A stretch of DNA of 64,000 nt from Pseudomonas sp. BN102 (GTDB taxonomy: Bacteria > Pseudomonadota > Gammaproteobacteria > Pseudomonadales > Pseudomonadaceae), in contig NZ_SSON01000078.1 in the NCBI RefSeq assembly GCF_029871245.1, positions 1 through 64,000 on the forward strand, given 5' to 3'. A program made the translations under genes and the position numbers. Shown piece after piece: positions 18,894-24,914 of this stretch (within the stretch, counting starts at the first letter, position 1; the number at the start of each line of letters is the position of its first letter). The notes below the pieces were generated by a model that made no database searches, was not told the origin of the DNA, and saw only the letters and a program-made list of their open reading frames with translations.

Positions 18894-19751
18894 TCAGCCC
18901 GCCGAATCGGCCAGTCCGGAAAGAAAGTGCGGCCCCAGGTAGCGCTGGGGAAGCTCGAACTGTTCCGGGTATTCCACCCGCACCAGATAGAGCCCGTAAG
19001 GGTGCGCGGTCACCCCGCCCTCCCGACGGATTCGCCCCTCCAGCACCTGCCTGGCCCACTCCACCGATTGCTCGCCGGCGCCGATGGTCATCAGCACCCC
19101 GGCGATATTGCGCACCATGTGGTGGAGGAAGGCGTTGGCGCGGATATCGAGCACTATCATGCGGCCATGCTCGATCAGTTCGAGGTGATGCACCGTCTTG
19201 ATCGGCGATTTCGCCTGGCACTGCCTGGCGCGGAAAGCACTGAAGTCGTGCATGCCGACCAGGCACCGGGCCGCCTCGCGCATGCGCTGGATATCCAGCG
19301 GGCGATGGTTCCAGGTCACCTCTTCGGCCATGTGCGCCGGGCGGATCTCGTCGTTGTAGATCACATAGCGATAACGCCGAGCCATGGCGCTGAAGCGAGC
19401 GTCGAAGGTCGTCGGCATTTCCTTGGCCCAAGTGACGCTGATATCTCCCGGCAGATTCATGTTCGCGCCCATGATCCAGGAATGCATGGAGCGCACTACC
19501 GGAGTATCGAAGTGCACCACCTGGCCGCTGGCATGCACCATGGCATCAGTGCGGCCGGCGCAGGATAGTGTCACGGGCGCGCCGCCCGCCACACGGCTCA
19601 GGGCCGTTTCGAGGGATTCCTGGATCGAGGGCACACCGGCGCGCTGGCGCTGGAAACCGCGGTAGCGAGAGCCTTTGTATTCGACGCCGAGGGCGATTCT
19701 GTAAATGCCAGCGGCAGCCGAGGCGGCTGCCGGAGAATCTATATCAATCAA
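18894..19751 (-). CDS. truA: tRNA pseudouridine(38-40) synthase TruA with an exchanged 5' end
   Basis: 285 aa from a TTG at 19751, preceded ten bases upstream by GAAAAGG; an upstream TTG at 19778 sits on the predicted transcription start and is less likely. The conserved part begins [20 protein letters not shown] and carries the catalytic Asp in [10 protein letters not shown]; the usual AGRTDAGVHA has Gly where Met stands here. It makes pseudouridine at tRNA positions 38-40. The first 10 or so residues ([15 protein letters not shown]) come partly from an inserted element: the original truA start, MTQAVPAAAANSAAAG, is still present beside fimV at 21998. Before insertion truA began three bases after the fimV stop and was probably coupled to it. 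Confidence 0.93.
19707..19721. repeat. attachment-site repeat, truA side
   Basis: GCCAGCGGCAGCCGA, an exact copy of 21951-21965 and in the same orientation. It lies within truA codons for Ser-Ala-Ala-Ala-Gly. The flanks also match in part (a following GGCTGCCG and preceding CTG-AAA), so the crossover site cannot be placed more precisely. Confidence 0.75.
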
Positions 19752-19786
19752 GGACTTATAGCCTTTTCGTTTCCACAACGGCGCAA

Positions 19787-19815
19787 ATTATACCGGGCTG
19801 GAGGCCTAGTGCCAC
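19787..19815 (-). promoter_or_regulatory. element-borne sigma70 promoter reading into truA
   Basis: On the minus strand a perfect -10 TATAAT (19792 to 19787) stands 17 bp after a -35-like GTGGCA (19815 to 19810). Transcription would start near 19780, giving a leader of about 30 nt before the TTG at 19751. It would replace the fimV promoter on which truA probably depended before insertion. Confidence 0.55.
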
Positions 19816-19832
19816 GCGGGACCCGGTTTTAA

Positions 19833-19841
19833 TTGCGGAAA
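19833..19841. repeat. candidate integrase arm-type site, left
   Basis: TTGCGGAAA, repeated in direct orientation at 21901-21909. Each copy lies inside its repeat boundary (about 110 bp and 40 bp away), where arm-type integrase sites would be expected. Nine bases is short, so chance is possible. Confidence 0.3.
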
Positions 19842-19875
19842 CGATTTTGAGGGCATTTCTGCCATGCGCCACTGC

Positions 19876-19895
19876 CCTTCCTTTTAATAGGAAGG
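19876..19895. repeat. short inverted repeat in the element
   Basis: CCTTCCT and AGGAAGG with a 6-bp AT-rich spacer form a hairpin near the left end of the element. No T-run follows on either strand, so it is not a clear terminator. Its role is unknown. Confidence 0.4.
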
Positions 19896-19985
19896 CGCCT
19901 CCAATGGACGACCTTCCATCCCTCCTCGACGGGTTCATCATCGTGTCCTAGCCTGGGATACCGTGGCGAATCGCCGAAAGTCCTT

Positions 19986-20132
19986 TCAGATCAACACCTT
20001 GAGCATGAAACCAGCGCCCGCAATGGAGTCTAGAGGGGCGTCCAGGGCGCGAAACATCGCGTTATCCCACTCGCGACATTCCCCCAGCCCCTCCTTTCCC
20101 CAGTGATTGGTACAGAAAGTGGTACGAGCCAA
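19986..20132 (-). CDS. possible 48-residue prophage-type small protein
   Basis: A frame on the minus strand from a TTG at 20132 to TGA at 19986, with AGGG five bases before the TTG. The product begins MARTTFCTNHWGKEGLGECR and ends FMLKVLI. I recall similar short frames next to integrases in Pseudomonas prophages, which would make it a conserved piece of the element, but it may be conserved for noncoding reasons. No domain is recognised. Confidence 0.35.
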   Translation of the reverse strand: MARTTFCTNHWGKEGLGECREWDNAMFRALDAPLDSIAGAGFMLKVLI

Positions 20133-20300
20133 TCGCCCTACCCCAGCCAGCCGTCGCCGCCCATCGCTGGGCCTCCCTTGTCCTTACTTGCATCTCGATG
20201 CGTACAGGCTCCTTTAGCCCAGCGACCAACTTCGCCAAGCCAACGGTCATGCGAAGTGACGCCGGGGACCTACTGGCGAAGAATCAGCCATTGCCTCCTG

Positions 20301-20594
20301 TTAGACATGGCCTGTCAGGCACGTAGTCGTAGCGCGCTGCTTGCCGAAGAGCAGGGCATCTTCTGGATCTACGCGAATGACGCCGAGCGCTTTACACAGG
20401 TCGCCCTCGAAATACAGATGCTCCGATTTGAACCGGCCGTCAGGGCGATACACCCCCACAAATACAACCTCCACCACGCCAAAGAACAAGCCGACCATGA
20501 CAGAGCAGGAACGATCCTGGCTGGCCTCGAAGGTATGTTCTTTTGCGTCCGGGTACCGGCCGATGAACTGCTGGTAGACGTAGCTGCGATCCAT
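20301..20594 (-). CDS. hypothetical protein of the element
   Basis: 97 aa from the ATG at 20594, preceded by GGAGA; the frame is open to 20729 but only this ATG has a good ribosome binding site. The product starts MDRSYVYQQFIGRYPDAKEH. It has a hydrophobic stretch in its middle (VMVGLFFGVVEVVFVGVY) followed by a polar C-terminus. I do not recognise a domain. It lies divergent from the 20664 gene. The 168 bp between this gene and the 48-residue frame show nothing that I can name. Confidence 0.55.
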   Translation of the reverse strand: MDRSYVYQQFIGRYPDAKEHTFEASQDRSCSVMVGLFFGVVEVVFVGVYRPDGRFKSEHLYFEGDLCKALGVIRVDPEDALLFGKQRATTTCLTGHV

Positions 20595-20663
20595 CCTTTC
20601 TCTCCTTGTCTGGCTCCATGTCCGACAAGCAACCAATAGACCACTTAATGTCATAGCGCCACT

Positions 20664-20876
20664 ATGGCGAAGAAATCCCCTGTGCCTGAAGAGAACCAGA
20701 GCGCCAGCCTGGCGCCGGGGCTGCTGCACATGCGCCAGGGTTTCCTGGGCGTCGATGAACTAGTCCCGCTGGGTGATTGGTGCAGAACCATGAAGGCGGC
20801 CAAGGCCAGGTACAAGGCCGCGCTGAAGGCGAAGCAGGATCAGGAGCGCACCTGGCGCAAGGAGTGGGCGGCATGA
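20664..20876 (+). CDS. hypothetical phage-type protein
   Basis: 70 aa, starting MAKKSPVPEENQSASLAP. The C-terminal half is a highly charged helix (KAAKARYKAALKAKQDQE). It overlaps the next gene by 4 bp (ATGA), a sign of a real two-gene operon. No domain is recognised. Such small genes are frequent in the early regions of Pseudomonas phages, which is only a context argument. Confidence 0.55.
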   Translation: MAKKSPVPEENQSASLAPGLLHMRQGFLGVDELVPLGDWCRTMKAAKARYKAALKAKQDQERTWRKEWAA

Positions 20877-21271
20877 AGAACGAATACGGCCTCGACGTCG
20901 ACTACTTCACCAAGCCGTGCGCCAGGAAGTTCAATCCGGACATGATTCGGCGCCAGCCCCCGCAGGACCTGGCCAGCGCCCTTGCTCGGGCAGCGCGGAC
21001 CACCTGCGCTGGCGTGCAGCGCGAAGAGGCGTTCGAGTGGGAGCGCCTGTACGCGCCCGGCCAGATCGTCGCCGGCGATGAAATCCGCATCCAGTTCAAT
21101 GGCAAATCCATCACCGTGCACGTTGCCGAGGTCCTGAACCCTGGCAGCGACCGCGAGGAGGTCGTCTACAACCGGCGCAAGAACTTCTACTTCGTCACTT
21201 CCATGGCGATCGAGGGCAGCAGCCACGCCAAGCAGGAGCGCATTCGCATCAGGCCGCTGCAGCCTGAGTAG
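20873..21271 (+). CDS. hypothetical phage-type protein
   Basis: 132 aa from the ATG that overlaps the previous stop. The N-terminus NEYGLDVDYFTKPCARKFN resembles small proteins that I have seen near integrases in Pseudomonas prophages; function unknown there too. The C-terminal half looks beta-rich. The frame opens upstream at 20777, inside the previous gene, but coupling supports 20873. Confidence 0.6.
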   Translation: MKNEYGLDVDYFTKPCARKFNPDMIRRQPPQDLASALARAARTTCAGVQREEAFEWERLYAPGQIVAGDEIRIQFNGKSITVHVAEVLNPGSDREEVVYNRRKNFYFVTSMAIEGSSHAKQERIRIRPLQPE

Positions 21272-21361
21272 CGGACCTGTCACCCCTCCCCGGAAACCTA
21301 TTACCCGTTTTCGGAAACTCTTTTCCGCCTATCCTGCGAGGGGATTGCCGACACCCAATTA

Positions 21362-21637
21362 CTACTCCACGGGCGGCAGGAGATTTGGCTCCTTCTTTCG
21401 CCCCACCCGGACAAATACGGAGAGCCACACCCAAAGGAAGGCGCCCAGGAACTTTGCCGCATCAACGAGAAGGACCCGATCAAGAGCAAGAACGTCGTTG
21501 GTGAAACTCTGGAACGGGTGGTCGGCCAGATAGGAAGCCTCTATTCCCCAGATCAACACGACAGCCCACCCAACACCGGCCAGCCATAGCGCGATCCATA
21601 GCGACCGCTCAACAAACAACCTCTGGGCTTTGTTCAT
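21362..21637 (-). CDS. small membrane protein of the element
   Basis: 91 aa from the ATG at 21637, which has AGGG eight bases upstream; a TTG at 21658 would add seven residues. Two membrane segments are visible (about residues 12-33 and 63-84) with a basic KRVGRKK-like end (VRVGRKKEP). No domain recognised. Its 5' end faces the integrase remnant. Confidence 0.5.
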   Translation of the reverse strand: MNKAQRLFVERSLWIALWLAGVGWAVVLIWGIEASYLADHPFQSFTNDVLALDRVLLVDAAKFLGAFLWVWLSVFVRVGRKKEPNLLPPVE

Positions 21638-21659
21638 TGTGCAATCCCTTGCCTTCAAC

Positions 21660-21871
21660 TCCGGATCAGCTTAGCCCCGAAAACCGAAACCACCCATGAC
21701 CCGGACCTGGCCGAGGCCATCATGCAGCTTCAGTTCCGCGACATCCGGCCGAAAGCCGCCTCGGAAATCGTGAGCCTGGAGAACGCTTCCGACCTCCTGG
21801 GACACACCAAACAGGAAATCACCAAGCGGGTTTACCGGCGCATCGGTAAGGCGGTGAACCCCGTGAAATAG
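21660..21871 (+). pseudogene. tyrosine recombinase (phage integrase), C-terminal remnant
   Basis: An open frame without its own start ends at TAG 21869-21871. It encodes the end of a phage integrase: QFRDIRPKAASEI (box with the second catalytic Arg), LLGHTKQEITKRVYRRIG (LGH motif and the nucleophile Tyr) and NPVK at the C-terminus. The N-terminal arm-binding domain, the core-binding domain and the first catalytic Arg are missing, since the upstream DNA is occupied by an opposed gene. It cannot be active. It lies 80 bp from the right repeat, as expected for an element's integrase. Confidence 0.8.
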
Positions 21872-21900
21872 CCAAGGGGTTGCCGAAATGGCCGGAATAG

Positions 21901-21909
21901 TTGCGGAAA
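21901..21909. repeat. candidate integrase arm-type site, right
   Basis: Second copy of TTGCGGAAA in the same orientation as 19833-19841, between the integrase remnant and the right boundary repeat. A related TTGCCGAAA lies 20 bp before it. Confidence 0.3.
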
Positions 21910-21932
21910 TGGACGGGCTGGAAGTGGCGTAT

Positions 21933-21998
21933 TCAACGCCTTACTGAAACGCCAGCGGCAGCCGAATTGGCTGCCGCTGCGGGTACTGCTTGAGTCAT
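21933..21998 (-). pseudogene. orphaned original 5' end of truA
   Basis: Three bases after the fimV stop an ATG at 21998 opens a 21-codon frame, MTQAVPAAAANSAAAG, continuing VSVRR and a stop. Its last truA-like codons (TCG GCT GCC GCT GGC) are identical, and in the same frame, as the codons just before [10 protein letters not shown] in truA at 19707. Joining the two restores a normal TruA N-terminus, so this is the start left behind by the insertion. Confidence 0.8.
21951..21965. repeat. attachment-site repeat, fimV side
   Basis: Exact direct copy of 19707-19721. With the next bases it forms a GCGGCAGCC/GGCTGCCGC hairpin just after fimV, which could also act in ending fimV transcription, though no T-run follows. 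Confidence 0.75.
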
Positions 21999-22001
21999 CT
22001 A

Positions 22002-24914
22002 TCAGCTGAGACGTGCGATCAGTTCGCGCGCTTCCTGCTGTTGGGTGTCATTCCCCTCCGAGATCACCTCGTCGAGGATGTCGCGAGCGCCTTCCGTGTC
22101 GCCCATGTCGATATAGGCGCGAGCCAGGTCCAGTTTGGTCGCGGTTTCATCGGTGCCGGAAAGGAAGTCGAAGTCGTCCTCCTCATCCAGGCCCGGTGCC
22201 GGCACTTTGTCCTCCAGGACCGCGACCGGCTCTGGCGCCTGTTGCAGGCTGGCGGAGAGCTGGTCGAGCTCAGCACTGACCTCGTCGAGCTGAGCCGCGA
22301 AGCTGTCGTTGTCGGCCAGCGGCTCGGCAACCGATTCATCAGGCAGGGACAGGTCGAAGTCAGCCGGCAGGTCGAGCAGGCCGGAGATGGCCACCTCCGG
22401 TGCGGGAGCCGGTTCCCGGGGCGCCGTCGGCGCGTCGAAATCGTCGTCCAGGCTTAGCAGGAAGTCGTCCTCCTCGGCGGTAACCGGCTTGGCAGCGGGC
22501 TCCAGGTCGAGGCTGAAATCGGCGAGGTCATCGCTGAGCTCGAGGCTCTCGTTGCTGGTCGGCAACTCTTCGTCGCCACCGATATCCAGGTCGAACTCCA
22601 GGCCGTCCGCAGCCTTGGCCTGCTCGGCGAGCGCATCGAACTCCAGATCATCGAGGCTCAGCTCATTGGCCGGAGCTGCCGCGGGCTGGATCGCCGCCGG
22701 CTTCTCCTCCGCCAGCTCGATATCCAGGCTGGATTCCAGGTCGTCCAGGCTGAGATCGAACGCGTCGTCCAGATCCGCGCCCGGCGCAGCGCTGCTGGCG
22801 GCAGGAGCATCGTCCAGGGTCAGGTCATCGAGGCTGAAGCTGTCGAGGTCATCGGCCGCGGCCAGACCGGCGGCAGCGGTGGCGGCAACCGCAGCCACTG
22901 CGATGGCCGGATACCGGCCCTTCAGCTGCTCGATCTCGCTGGCAGCGCCGCCGATTTCGCGGAGCTCCCTTTCCTGACGGGCGAAACCATCGCGATCGCC
23001 CAGTTCGGCATAGACCTCCAGCAGTTTCAGGCGCAGGTCGCTGCGATGCGGCTCATCGTTGATGGCATTCTGCAGCAGCTCGCCGGCCTGGCTGAAGCGG
23101 CCGTAGGCGATATAGATGTCGGCTTCGCTGATCACATCACCAGTCTCGGCGGTGACGCGCTCTTCAGGTTTGTCCTGCGCCGCGTCCGGAGCCGAGGCTT
23201 CTGCGGTTTCCGCGGTTTCCAGCCCAAGGGCATCGAGGGCAGCGAAGCTGTCGTCCTTCAGGTCGAGGTCGCTGTCGAAGCCGTTCTCGTCATCGCGGGC
23301 GGCCAGGCTGTTCTGCAGCTCGGCTTCCTTCAGTGCATTGCGACGGGACAGCACCATCAGCAACACCAGCAGGGCCACCAGGGCGCTGCCGCCGGCCAGC
23401 ATGAGAAGCATCGGGTTGGCCAGCACGTCGTCGATGATGCTGGACTTCGGCGGTTCGGCAACCGGGGCAGCCTGCGCCGGTTCGGCGGGCTGGGCAGGCG
23501 CCGCGGCAACGGGCGCCGCTGGGGCGGCCGCTTCAGGAGCCGGAGCAGGAGTACCGGACTCGGCCGGAGCAGCCGGTTGTGCCGGGGCAGCAGCAAGAGC
23601 GGCGGGCTGGGCAGGTGCCTCGGCAACGGACGCCTCGGGGGTGGCCGGCGCGGGAGTCGGAGCGGGCTGGACCGGATCCGCTGCGGGCTTGGCCTCCTCG
23701 GCGGAGGCGGCGGCCGGAGCTGCGGGGGCTTGCTTGCCCTGGGCGGCCATGTCCGCCTGGAGCTTGGCCAACTGGTCATCCTTGAGCTGGATCAGGCGCT
23801 GCAGCTTGTCCATCTGGCTCTGCAGATCGCCCATGCGACTCTTCAGCTCTTCGTTCTCGCGACGAGTGGAGTCCAGGCTTTCCTGGGTGACGGCCAGCTT
23901 GTCGCTGAGGGCTTTGCTTTCGCCATTAGCGCCCTTGTCACTGCCGCTGGAAGCCTTGCCGCTGGCAGCAGCTACCAAGCGCAGGCTGTCCTCGGTATCG
24001 ACCTTCTCGGGCGCCTCACCGGCGCTGGCGCGCTTGGTAGCGTCCAGCTGGCGCTTGCCCTCCCCTGCCAGGCTGCGTCCTTCGCGCCAGGCGGTGTTCT
24101 GCACCGCGACCTGGCTCAGGGCTTCCGCCTGGCTGCGGCTGGCAATCTGTTGCTCATCGGGCAGGCGAAGAACCTGGCCACTCTTCAGGCGGTTGATGTT
24201 GCCGTCGACAAAGGCGTCCGGGTTCAGGTCCTGGATGGCCAGCATGGCCTGGTGCACCGAGCCGCTGGCGCGGGTGCGTTCAGCGATCTCCCACAGGGTA
24301 TCGCGGGAGGTGGTGCGGTATTGGTCGGTCGGCGCTTTGGCCGCTGGCGCGGGAGCAGGGGCCGCGGGAGCGCTCGGACGCGGCGCGGCGGCGGGAGCCG
24401 AAGCTGCAGCGGGCGCACTGCGGACCGGCGCGGGCGCAACCGCCGCACGCGGTGCCGGAGTGGGAGCTGCGACCGGGATCTTCGGCGCGGCGGCTACCGC
24501 GGTTTGCGGCGAATAGAGCGGCGGATCCAGCAGCAGGGTGTATTCACGCAGCAGGCGGCCGTTGGGCCAGAGCACCTCGACGAGGAAATTCAGATAGGGT
24601 TCGCGGACCGGCTTGCTCGACGTCACCCGGATGACACTGCGGCCATTGGGCTTGAGGACCGGGGTGAACTTGAGGTCCGCCAGGAAGTACTGGCGATCGA
24701 CCCCGGCCTTGGAGAACTCCTCGGCCGACGCCAGGCTCGGCTTGACCTCGGCCGATGCGAGATCGCGCACTTCGAGCAGCTCGATCTCCGCGACCAGAGG
24801 CTGGTTCAAGGAGGAGCGCAGGGTGACTTCCCCAAGCCCGAGCGCGTGGGCCATGCCCGAAGTCAGCGCGGATGCGGCCGCGATTGCCAGCACAAGTTTG
24901 CGAACCCGAACCAT
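22002..24914 (-). CDS. fimV: motility hub / pilus assembly protein FimV
   Basis: 970 aa. Signal peptide (LVLAIAAASALTSGMAHA), periplasmic FimV N-domain beginning GLGEVTLRSSLNQPLVAEIE, a LysM peptidoglycan-binding unit (about residues 195-255), a coiled coil (about 340-395), one membrane helix (LLMLAGGSALVALLVLLMVL, about 507-530) and a long acidic cytoplasmic part ending in the FimV TPR motif (LDLARAYIDMGDTEGARDIL). Pro/Ala-rich linkers separate the parts. In P. aeruginosa FimV is needed for type IV pilus-driven twitching and type II secretion of some exoproteins. The coupled truA downstream has been moved away by the element. Confidence 0.96.
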   Translation of the reverse strand: MVRVRKLVLAIAAASALTSGMAHALGLGEVTLRSSLNQPLVAEIELLEVRDLASAEVKPSLASAEEFSKAGVDRQYFLADLKFTPVLKPNGRSVIRVTSSKPVREPYLNFLVEVLWPNGRLLREYTLLLDPPLYSPQTAVAAAPKIPVAAPTPAPRAAVAPAPVRSAPAAASAPAAAPRPSAPAAPAPAPAAKAPTDQYRTTSRDTLWEIAERTRASGSVHQAMLAIQDLNPDAFVDGNINRLKSGQVLRLPDEQQIASRSQAEALSQVAVQNTAWREGRSLAGEGKRQLDATKRASAGEAPEKVDTEDSLRLVAAASGKASSGSDKGANGESKALSDKLAVTQESLDSTRRENEELKSRMGDLQSQMDKLQRLIQLKDDQLAKLQADMAAQGKQAPAAPAAASAEEAKPAADPVQPAPTPAPATPEASVAEAPAQPAALAAAPAQPAAPAESGTPAPAPEAAAPAAPVAAAPAQPAEPAQAAPVAEPPKSSIIDDVLANPMLLMLAGGSALVALLVLLMVLSRRNALKEAELQNSLAARDDENGFDSDLDLKDDSFAALDALGLETAETAEASAPDAAQDKPEERVTAETGDVISEADIYIAYGRFSQAGELLQNAINDEPHRSDLRLKLLEVYAELGDRDGFARQERELREIGGAASEIEQLKGRYPAIAVAAVAATAAAGLAAADDLDSFSLDDLTLDDAPAASSAAPGADLDDAFDLSLDDLESSLDIELAEEKPAAIQPAAAPANELSLDDLEFDALAEQAKAADGLEFDLDIGGDEELPTSNESLELSDDLADFSLDLEPAAKPVTAEEDDFLLSLDDDFDAPTAPREPAPAPEVAISGLLDLPADFDLSLPDESVAEPLADNDSFAAQLDEVSAELDQLSASLQQAPEPVAVLEDKVPAPGLDEEDDFDFLSGTDETATKLDLARAYIDMGDTEGARDILDEVISEGNDTQQQEARELIARLS

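Follow-up and report, generated by a model that had tools for sequence, protein, structure and literature searches.

Replacement of the 5' end of a target gene by the integrating element is on record for the SXT integrative and conjugative element (ICE) in prfC, and for IMEVchUSA3 in dusA a new promoter and a new N-terminus were shown by a lacZ fusion (PMC8409611, excerpts). We describe here a similar arrangement in truA of Pseudomonas sp. BN102. The window analysed is a stretch of 64,000 nt belonging to a 6.48-Mb genome in 81 contigs (G000), and it contains, between fimV and the truA body, 2.24 kb enclosed by direct repeats. The explanation that we favour, with a probability of roughly 0.85, is that the 2.24 kb derives from a temperate phage, now decayed, in which the attachment arm had gained a promoter and a start codon for the target gene, both kept after the death of the phage. 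As in the dusA islands, the target would be a tRNA-modification gene, entered at its 5' end; the dusA elements are mobilizable islands and their target is dusA, not truA, and SXT is a conjugative element in prfC, whereas here a tailed phage is involved and the promoter-like sequence stands between two presumed arm-type sites. The excerpts of PMC8409611 mention no decayed copies keeping the promoter.

In the integrase tree, the truA group formed a single clade (support 0.92), sister to the group of phages F10 and Pacha_bin_1. The integrases of these phages and their relatives were 66–71% identical, over 348 residues (six records), to the intact integrase of the genus, that of genome G012, and the group shared the same presumed arm site, with a pair of sites 64 nt apart in five of the seven group records examined. 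They differed in the absence of the promoter-like sequence between the arms, and fimV was not shown beside the integrase in the two records tested, F10 and Pacha_bin_1. No printed description of a truA integration site was found in the open-licence literature searched. According to the excerpt of PMC3757294, a Lactococcus "truA" site adjoins a tRNA-Arg gene in the lytR–truA interval, and in that of PMC4494060 truA is a housekeeping gene. As far as searched, the truA target, the use of this strategy by a tailed phage, the promoter between arms that is absent from related phages and the decayed copies that keep the promoter are new.

The Attachment Site in truA

The genes fimV and truA are on the same strand, with the end of fimV at position 22002 and truA at lower coordinates. 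An exact 15-bp direct repeat, GCCAGCGGCAGCCGA, was found at 19707–19721 and 21951–21965; it could be extended to 19703–19732 and 21947–21976, with 26 matches out of 30 (87%) and a spacing of 2244. The core is a hairpin-forming palindrome. From the repeat and from the comparison of genomes of the genus, the truA-side core, attR, was placed at 19707–19732 and reads CGGCAGCC-GCCTC-GGCTGCCGCTGGC towards truA, and the fimV-side core, attL, at 21951–21976, with the spacer AATTC. The initial annotation had seen the 15-bp repeats in the same truA codons at both ends, with an integrase C-terminus about 80 bp from one of them; both copies were confirmed, and the integrase stop codon (21869–21871) is 79 nt away.

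The fimV–truA region was compared in 18 genomes of the genus, G000 included. In 12 of them the site was empty, with 55–59 bp from the end of fimV to the body of truA, and an in-frame ATG was present 16 codons before the truA body in all 12, located 3 nt past the fimV stop in 11 and 7 nt past it in G002. The remaining six were filled at the same point (2299 bp in G000, 1097 in G015, 2131 in G010, 4408 in G011, 4648 in G016 and 11,889 in G012). Direct repeats at both ends together with an empty site in relatives characterise a site-specific integrative element. The uninterrupted truA that had been predicted for relatives was thus present in 12 of the 18 genomes, and truA was indeed the attachment gene, as had been proposed, the same truA site also holding larger elements with a matching integrase, the other prediction of the initial annotation.

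These larger elements were found in two Pseudomonas-type genomes, G300 and G398, the latter a Pseudomonas metagenome-assembled genome whose truA site is occupied by 47 kb. G300 gave the best integrase match outside the genus, beside fimV, with truA 39 kb off. The integrases of the two inserts were 78% (G300) and 84% (G398) identical to the intact genus integrase. Among ten proteins scanned in G300 were a terminase, two portal-family open reading frames (ORFs), a tape measure protein, a DnaB-like helicase, an anti-repressor and a CI-type repressor, two being unmatched; the ten scanned in G398 included a terminase, a portal, a head protease, a tape measure protein, a DNA methyltransferase and a CI-like repressor. 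With head, tail, packaging and lysogeny genes, both inserts are temperate tailed phages. The best-matching terminase and portal families differed between G300 and G398 (phrog_9 and phrog_15; phrog_2271 and phrog_21), which indicates one integration module in two kinds of phage, and this module seems to move between phage types. Both ends of a further element were present in G399, on separate contigs. In the G012 element, the integrase gene of 348 codons is open, and two DNA methyltransferase genes are present (locus L022, 4649–7348); no head or tail gene was seen among ten proteins scanned in this 11.8-kb element.

A Probable Start Codon and a Promoter-Like Sequence at the truA-Side End

In the window, truA as now encoded occupies 18894–19751 on the minus strand (PF01416), with a predicted TTG start at 19751 and 15 residues before IYRIALGV; a longer frame from a TTG at 19778 is also open. 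The native start was abandoned at the far end of the element (21977–21998, minus strand), where the ATG at 21998 lies 3 nt past the fimV stop. A 15-residue leader beginning at the TTG would replace the native MTQAVPAAAANSAAAG. The truA-side end could be aligned in nine elements, and the sequence of these ends bore out the proposal that the element rewrote the first truA codons: in all nine, the element restored the frame with an in-frame 15-codon start, and a TTG was present 45 nt ahead of the first shared truA codon (ATT). This TTG was the only start common to all. Six elements had an additional in-frame TTG upstream and G300 also an ATG within the core; G010 and G399 had no other in-frame ATG, GTG or TTG, which makes the TTG at 45 nt the likeliest start.

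Upstream of it, a sigma70-like promoter reading into truA was predicted at 19787–19815 on the minus strand, GTGGCA-17-TATAAT, with 10 matches out of 12. The initial annotation had overlooked this promoter-like sequence, which is lacking in the related phages that share the arm-site pair. Both hexamers were identical in the six genus elements; over the nine ends, TATAAT was present in all, and GTGGCA stood 17 nt upstream of it in eight, G300 having GTGGTA. At best, eight elements matched at 10/12 and G300 at 9/12, as compared with 6–8/12 in seven related arm records; the truA-clade stretches had been cut around TATAAT and those of the related records around the arms, with mononucleotide shuffles as the background. 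The −35, the −10 and the TTG were invariant at 15 of 15 positions in the six genus elements, as against 69 of 110 leader columns (hypergeometric p = 5e-4), and in the nine elements at 14 of 15 as against 46 of 110 (p = 1e-5). A palindrome between the −35 and the −10, striking by eye in G010, G011 and G300, was weak in the other elements and was dropped.

A DNA search of 398 genomes of the family with the G012 end gave long matches to the leader in seven, the six genus genomes and G300. Most of the remaining matches, out of 80 matching genomes overall, covered truA codons and core only, and one 32-nt leader match in G280 was taken as chance. The spaced leader pattern found nothing in viral_contigs, where the IMG/VR contigs examined probably end before the truA side.

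Presumed Arm-Type Sites and the Decayed Copies

The predicted promoter lies between two short sites which, from their position and repetition, we presume to be of the arm type: an inner one at 19770–19777 (one mismatch to TTTCCGCA, element position 64) and an outer one at 19834–19841 (TGCGGAAA, element position 128, also a match of the repeat scan, D8), 64 nt apart. On the fimV side, two direct copies were located within 21881–21909, the first (21881–21888) with one mismatch and the second (21902–21909) exact. In a scan allowing one mismatch in eight elements, G399 being left out, the promoter was flanked by the facing TTTCCGCA and TGCGGAAA, with starts 64 nt apart, in six, the outer site of G010 and the inner site of G016 not being found; the direct pair of the fimV side, 21 nt apart, was present in seven of the eight.

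The stretch downstream of the integrase was read in 11 related records. The exact 64-nt arm pair was found in seven (F10, Pacha_bin_1, BR213a, CF24b, AV001, Fyn8 and the IMG/VR contig L148), the arms of BR213a and CF24b being identical and the pair of L148 lying directly past the integrase, ahead of a stretch that is tRNA-like by eye. No arm pair was present in the stretch read of OQ658367, Ostro, AUS531phi and PseuP_222. OQ658367, in which the Pacha core was recognised by eye, differs from the truA elements in that its annotated attL is beside the 3' end of a DNA-binding protein gene.

These observations bear on the best-surviving rival to a phage arm turned promoter, a decayed prophage whose truA-side end was conserved only as the binding arm of the integrase, truA being transcribed by read-through or from another promoter and TATAAT being incidental. 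The recurrence of the 64-nt pair around the promoter in six of the eight truA-site elements scanned, and with the same spacing in the seven related records, indicates that this stretch probably functions in recombination in its own right. However, TATAAT was found in nine of nine truA-site ends and between the arms of none of the seven related records with the pair, and the element of G010 kept both hexamers and the TTG in spite of the loss, on the one-mismatch scan, of three of its four arm sites, namely both fimV-side arms and the outer one. On this evidence we consider such an arm-only origin of the conservation unlikely. In G016, similarly, the core was damaged and the inner arm was unrecognisable, and the promoter-like sequence and the start were kept; in G015, the abandoned native ATG is now TTG. 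The pattern of retention in these three genomes is the one to be expected of an end that is now of use to truA and not to recombination.

Several points weigh against a promoter and start codon gained for truA. The promoter scan of 19690–22010 returned a single site, the one described, for 0.6 expected from shuffles, which is not significant; it is the conservation and not the scan that constitutes evidence. The −35 matches at just four of six positions, the ribosome-binding site ahead of the TTG looks weak, and promoter activity is predicted from the sequence. Leader columns are not independent, so that the p-values given above are indicative only. As the promoter and the arms lie together, leader conservation in young elements could reflect recombination, the two being separable only in G010 and partly in G016. 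Identifiable relatives are absent for most of the small ORFs of the window in Pfam, PHROGs, the phages and viral_contigs.

The core spacers also raise a difficulty. The 5-nt spacer was the same at both ends in G012, G011, G016, G300 and G398, but differed between ends in three of the eight elements: AATTC/GCCTC in G000 (21964–21968 and 19720–19724), AATAC/CCTGA in G015 and TCTGA/CCCGA in G010, the differences being seen likewise in loci L024 and L026. A strictly homology-dependent crossover would not directly give unequal spacers, and simple drift is no easy answer since the rest of the core is identical in G000 and G015. Recombination between mismatched spacers or a later exchange of the truA flank are possible explanations.

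Number of Arrivals

The occupied genomes were scattered on the truA tree, and at least five changes were needed to explain their distribution. This host tree is based on one gene, and the nodes joining G010 and G005 to G000 and G015 have supports of 0.75 and 0.48. The sister genomes G000 and G015, with their related remnants, probably share one insertion; G010 may be part of it, in which case the count becomes four. The comparison of divergence gave a mixed result: in 13 of 15 pairs the likeness of the fimV-side element ends was greater than that of the third codon positions of the hosts, but it was greater than that of the whole of truA in just four (G000–G012, G000–G011, G015–G012 and G016–G012), and the ends of G010 showed no clear excess of likeness to G000 or G015 over third positions. 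The clearest sign of movement was the discordance between element and host: the ends of G000 and G012 were 89% alike for 84% in truA, while for G012 and G011, which are closer as hosts, the figures were 84% in the ends and 88% in truA.

A single insertion in the ancestor of the genus, cleanly lost in 12 genomes, could accommodate the shared event of G000 and G015 and the uncertain position of G010. It is very improbable in view of the number of changes needed on the host tree, of an element likeness that does not track host likeness, and of the presence of the same elements outside the genus in G300 and G398. A reading of the repeats as palindromes with no relation to each other (a terminator or a repetitive extragenic element), and of the 2.2 kb as the product of ordinary rearrangement, which a hairpin-forming core might suggest, is already contradicted by the direct joins in the 12 empty genomes, the integrase beside the repeat, the larger phage-gene inserts with repeats of this kind at their ends, and a promoter and terminator scan with no terminator-like site.

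The Integrase and Its Target

At E ≤ 1e-20, 99 of the 398 family genomes contained a match to the integrase. The integrase gene was located at one end of the element, as a remnant in the window and as open 348-codon genes in G012, G300, G398 and four other loci. The window remnant (21671–21871, plus strand) corresponds to residues 335–400 of the 400-aa G012 query at 80% identity, the remainder being missing; the matching frame, 21671–21868, encodes the last 66 residues and adjoins the fimV-side repeat. A 49-aa ORF taken from this frame (21722–21871) had no Pfam or PHROG match by itself, and the identification as an integrase therefore rests on the alignment to the G012 query. Five residues, R203, K226, R308, H327 and Y337, were invariant in seven of seven full-length relatives, and we take them to be the catalytic R, K, R, H and Y of tyrosine recombinases. 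The window copy covers residues 283–348 in the 348-codon numbering and has an incomplete catalytic set. Judged from its sequence, it is a dead remnant, and its attribution to the tyrosine recombinases rests on its relatives. Another C-terminal integrase remnant of the same broad family (54%) was present elsewhere in G000 (C80:290459–290743).

The gene fimV adjoined the integrase in all seven loci of the clade with a visible flank (G012, G300, L067, L068, L069, which is the broken gene of G016, L070 and L072), three more clade loci (L071, L073 and L120) ending at or near the integrase stop. It was beside none of 41 more distant integrases, 18 family loci drawn from more than 100 places with integrase matches and 23 viral loci whose flank exceeded 150 nt; some of the viral flanks are probably phage DNA, and hence no test of the target. 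The decayed integrase of G010 (58% over about 190 residues) adjoins fimV, an exception to the use of identity as a guide. Past the integrase, the 18 family loci (L043–L060) had tRNA-Ser(TGA) in six cases, tRNA-Cys in six, tRNA-Leu about 330 nt off in one and no tRNA gene in five, and tRNA-Ser was beside the integrase in eight of 21 viral loci. With related integrases mostly at tRNA-Ser(TGA) or tRNA-Cys (12 of 18), this integrase family seems to switch target often. The record of Pseudomonas phage Y7 (OQ572409.1, L115, marked UNVERIFIED) contains fimV and truA side by side, and thus probably host DNA.

Other Features of the Remnant

The upstream neighbour fimV (22002–24914, minus strand, FimV_N match) is uninterrupted. 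Phage-type small genes had been reported between the repeats; the ORFs exist, with little family support, and a phage origin was plausible for the 132-aa ORF and no more than possible for the rest. This ORF (20873–21271, plus strand), probably a phage early-region gene, matched phrog_12475 (E = 1.8e-4, function unknown), the one PHROG match among six element ORFs, none of five being matched in Pfam. Its single further relative among the 398 family genomes (G165, 56%) adjoins an ORF which is DUF4406-like by eye, and a DUF4406 gene is present in the G012 element too; as recognisable cargo it was rejected, with no relative in phages or viral_contigs. A 70-aa ORF (20664–20876, plus strand), possibly a phage remnant, was likewise rejected as cargo, being unmatched in Pfam, in PHROGs and in the phage collection, as was a small ORF at 20301–20597 (minus strand, scanned as 20301–20645) with no Pfam or PHROG match and no relative in viral_contigs. 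Another small ORF, possibly membrane-spanning by eye (21362–21640, minus strand), had no Pfam or PHROG match. No recognisable head, tail, packaging or lysogeny gene was found in the window copy with Pfam and PHROGs. Inside the decayed element of G016 (L025), an IS3-type transposase-like ORF pair was seen by eye at element positions of approximately 1834–2765.

Discussion

We propose the following sequence of events. Codons 8–16 of truA form a palindromic site, and a temperate phage would integrate there through tyrosine recombination. The insertion would sever truA from fimV, natively 3 nt away, and from its own start codon, and the arm ending up next to truA would compensate with the sigma70-like promoter GTGGCA-17-TATAAT, between the two presumed arm sites, followed by the in-frame TTG. 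In the TruA made by a lysogen, the 16 native residues would give way to a start of 15, approximately the first seven being new and the others specified by the shared core. Nearly all of the phage genes would later have been lost in the window, and the promoter and start would have remained, we infer, because truA now depends on them. Firing of the promoter, use of the TTG and this dependence as the cause of retention are the predicted parts of the model.

From geometry alone, a promoter between arm sites could also be a switch wired to the state of integration, a speculative idea which we regard as doubtful. If it were true, truA would be driven from the promoter in the integrated state, and the excised circle would produce an antisense RNA running across the core to the 3' end of the integrase gene. 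Integrase filling the flanking arms for excision would shut truA off in the same act, and the phage would hold a tRNA-modification gene hostage, tying truA expression to its own life cycle.

The comparison suggests a route by which an integration module may reach the start of a protein gene, with retention of the presumed arms and of the distance between them and the rise of a promoter and a start codon between arm and core. The related phages would represent the promoter-free state, and the decayed copies a state in which service to the host gene seems to be the sole remaining role of the remnant. In occupied genomes, truA start codons annotated by homology may be wrong.

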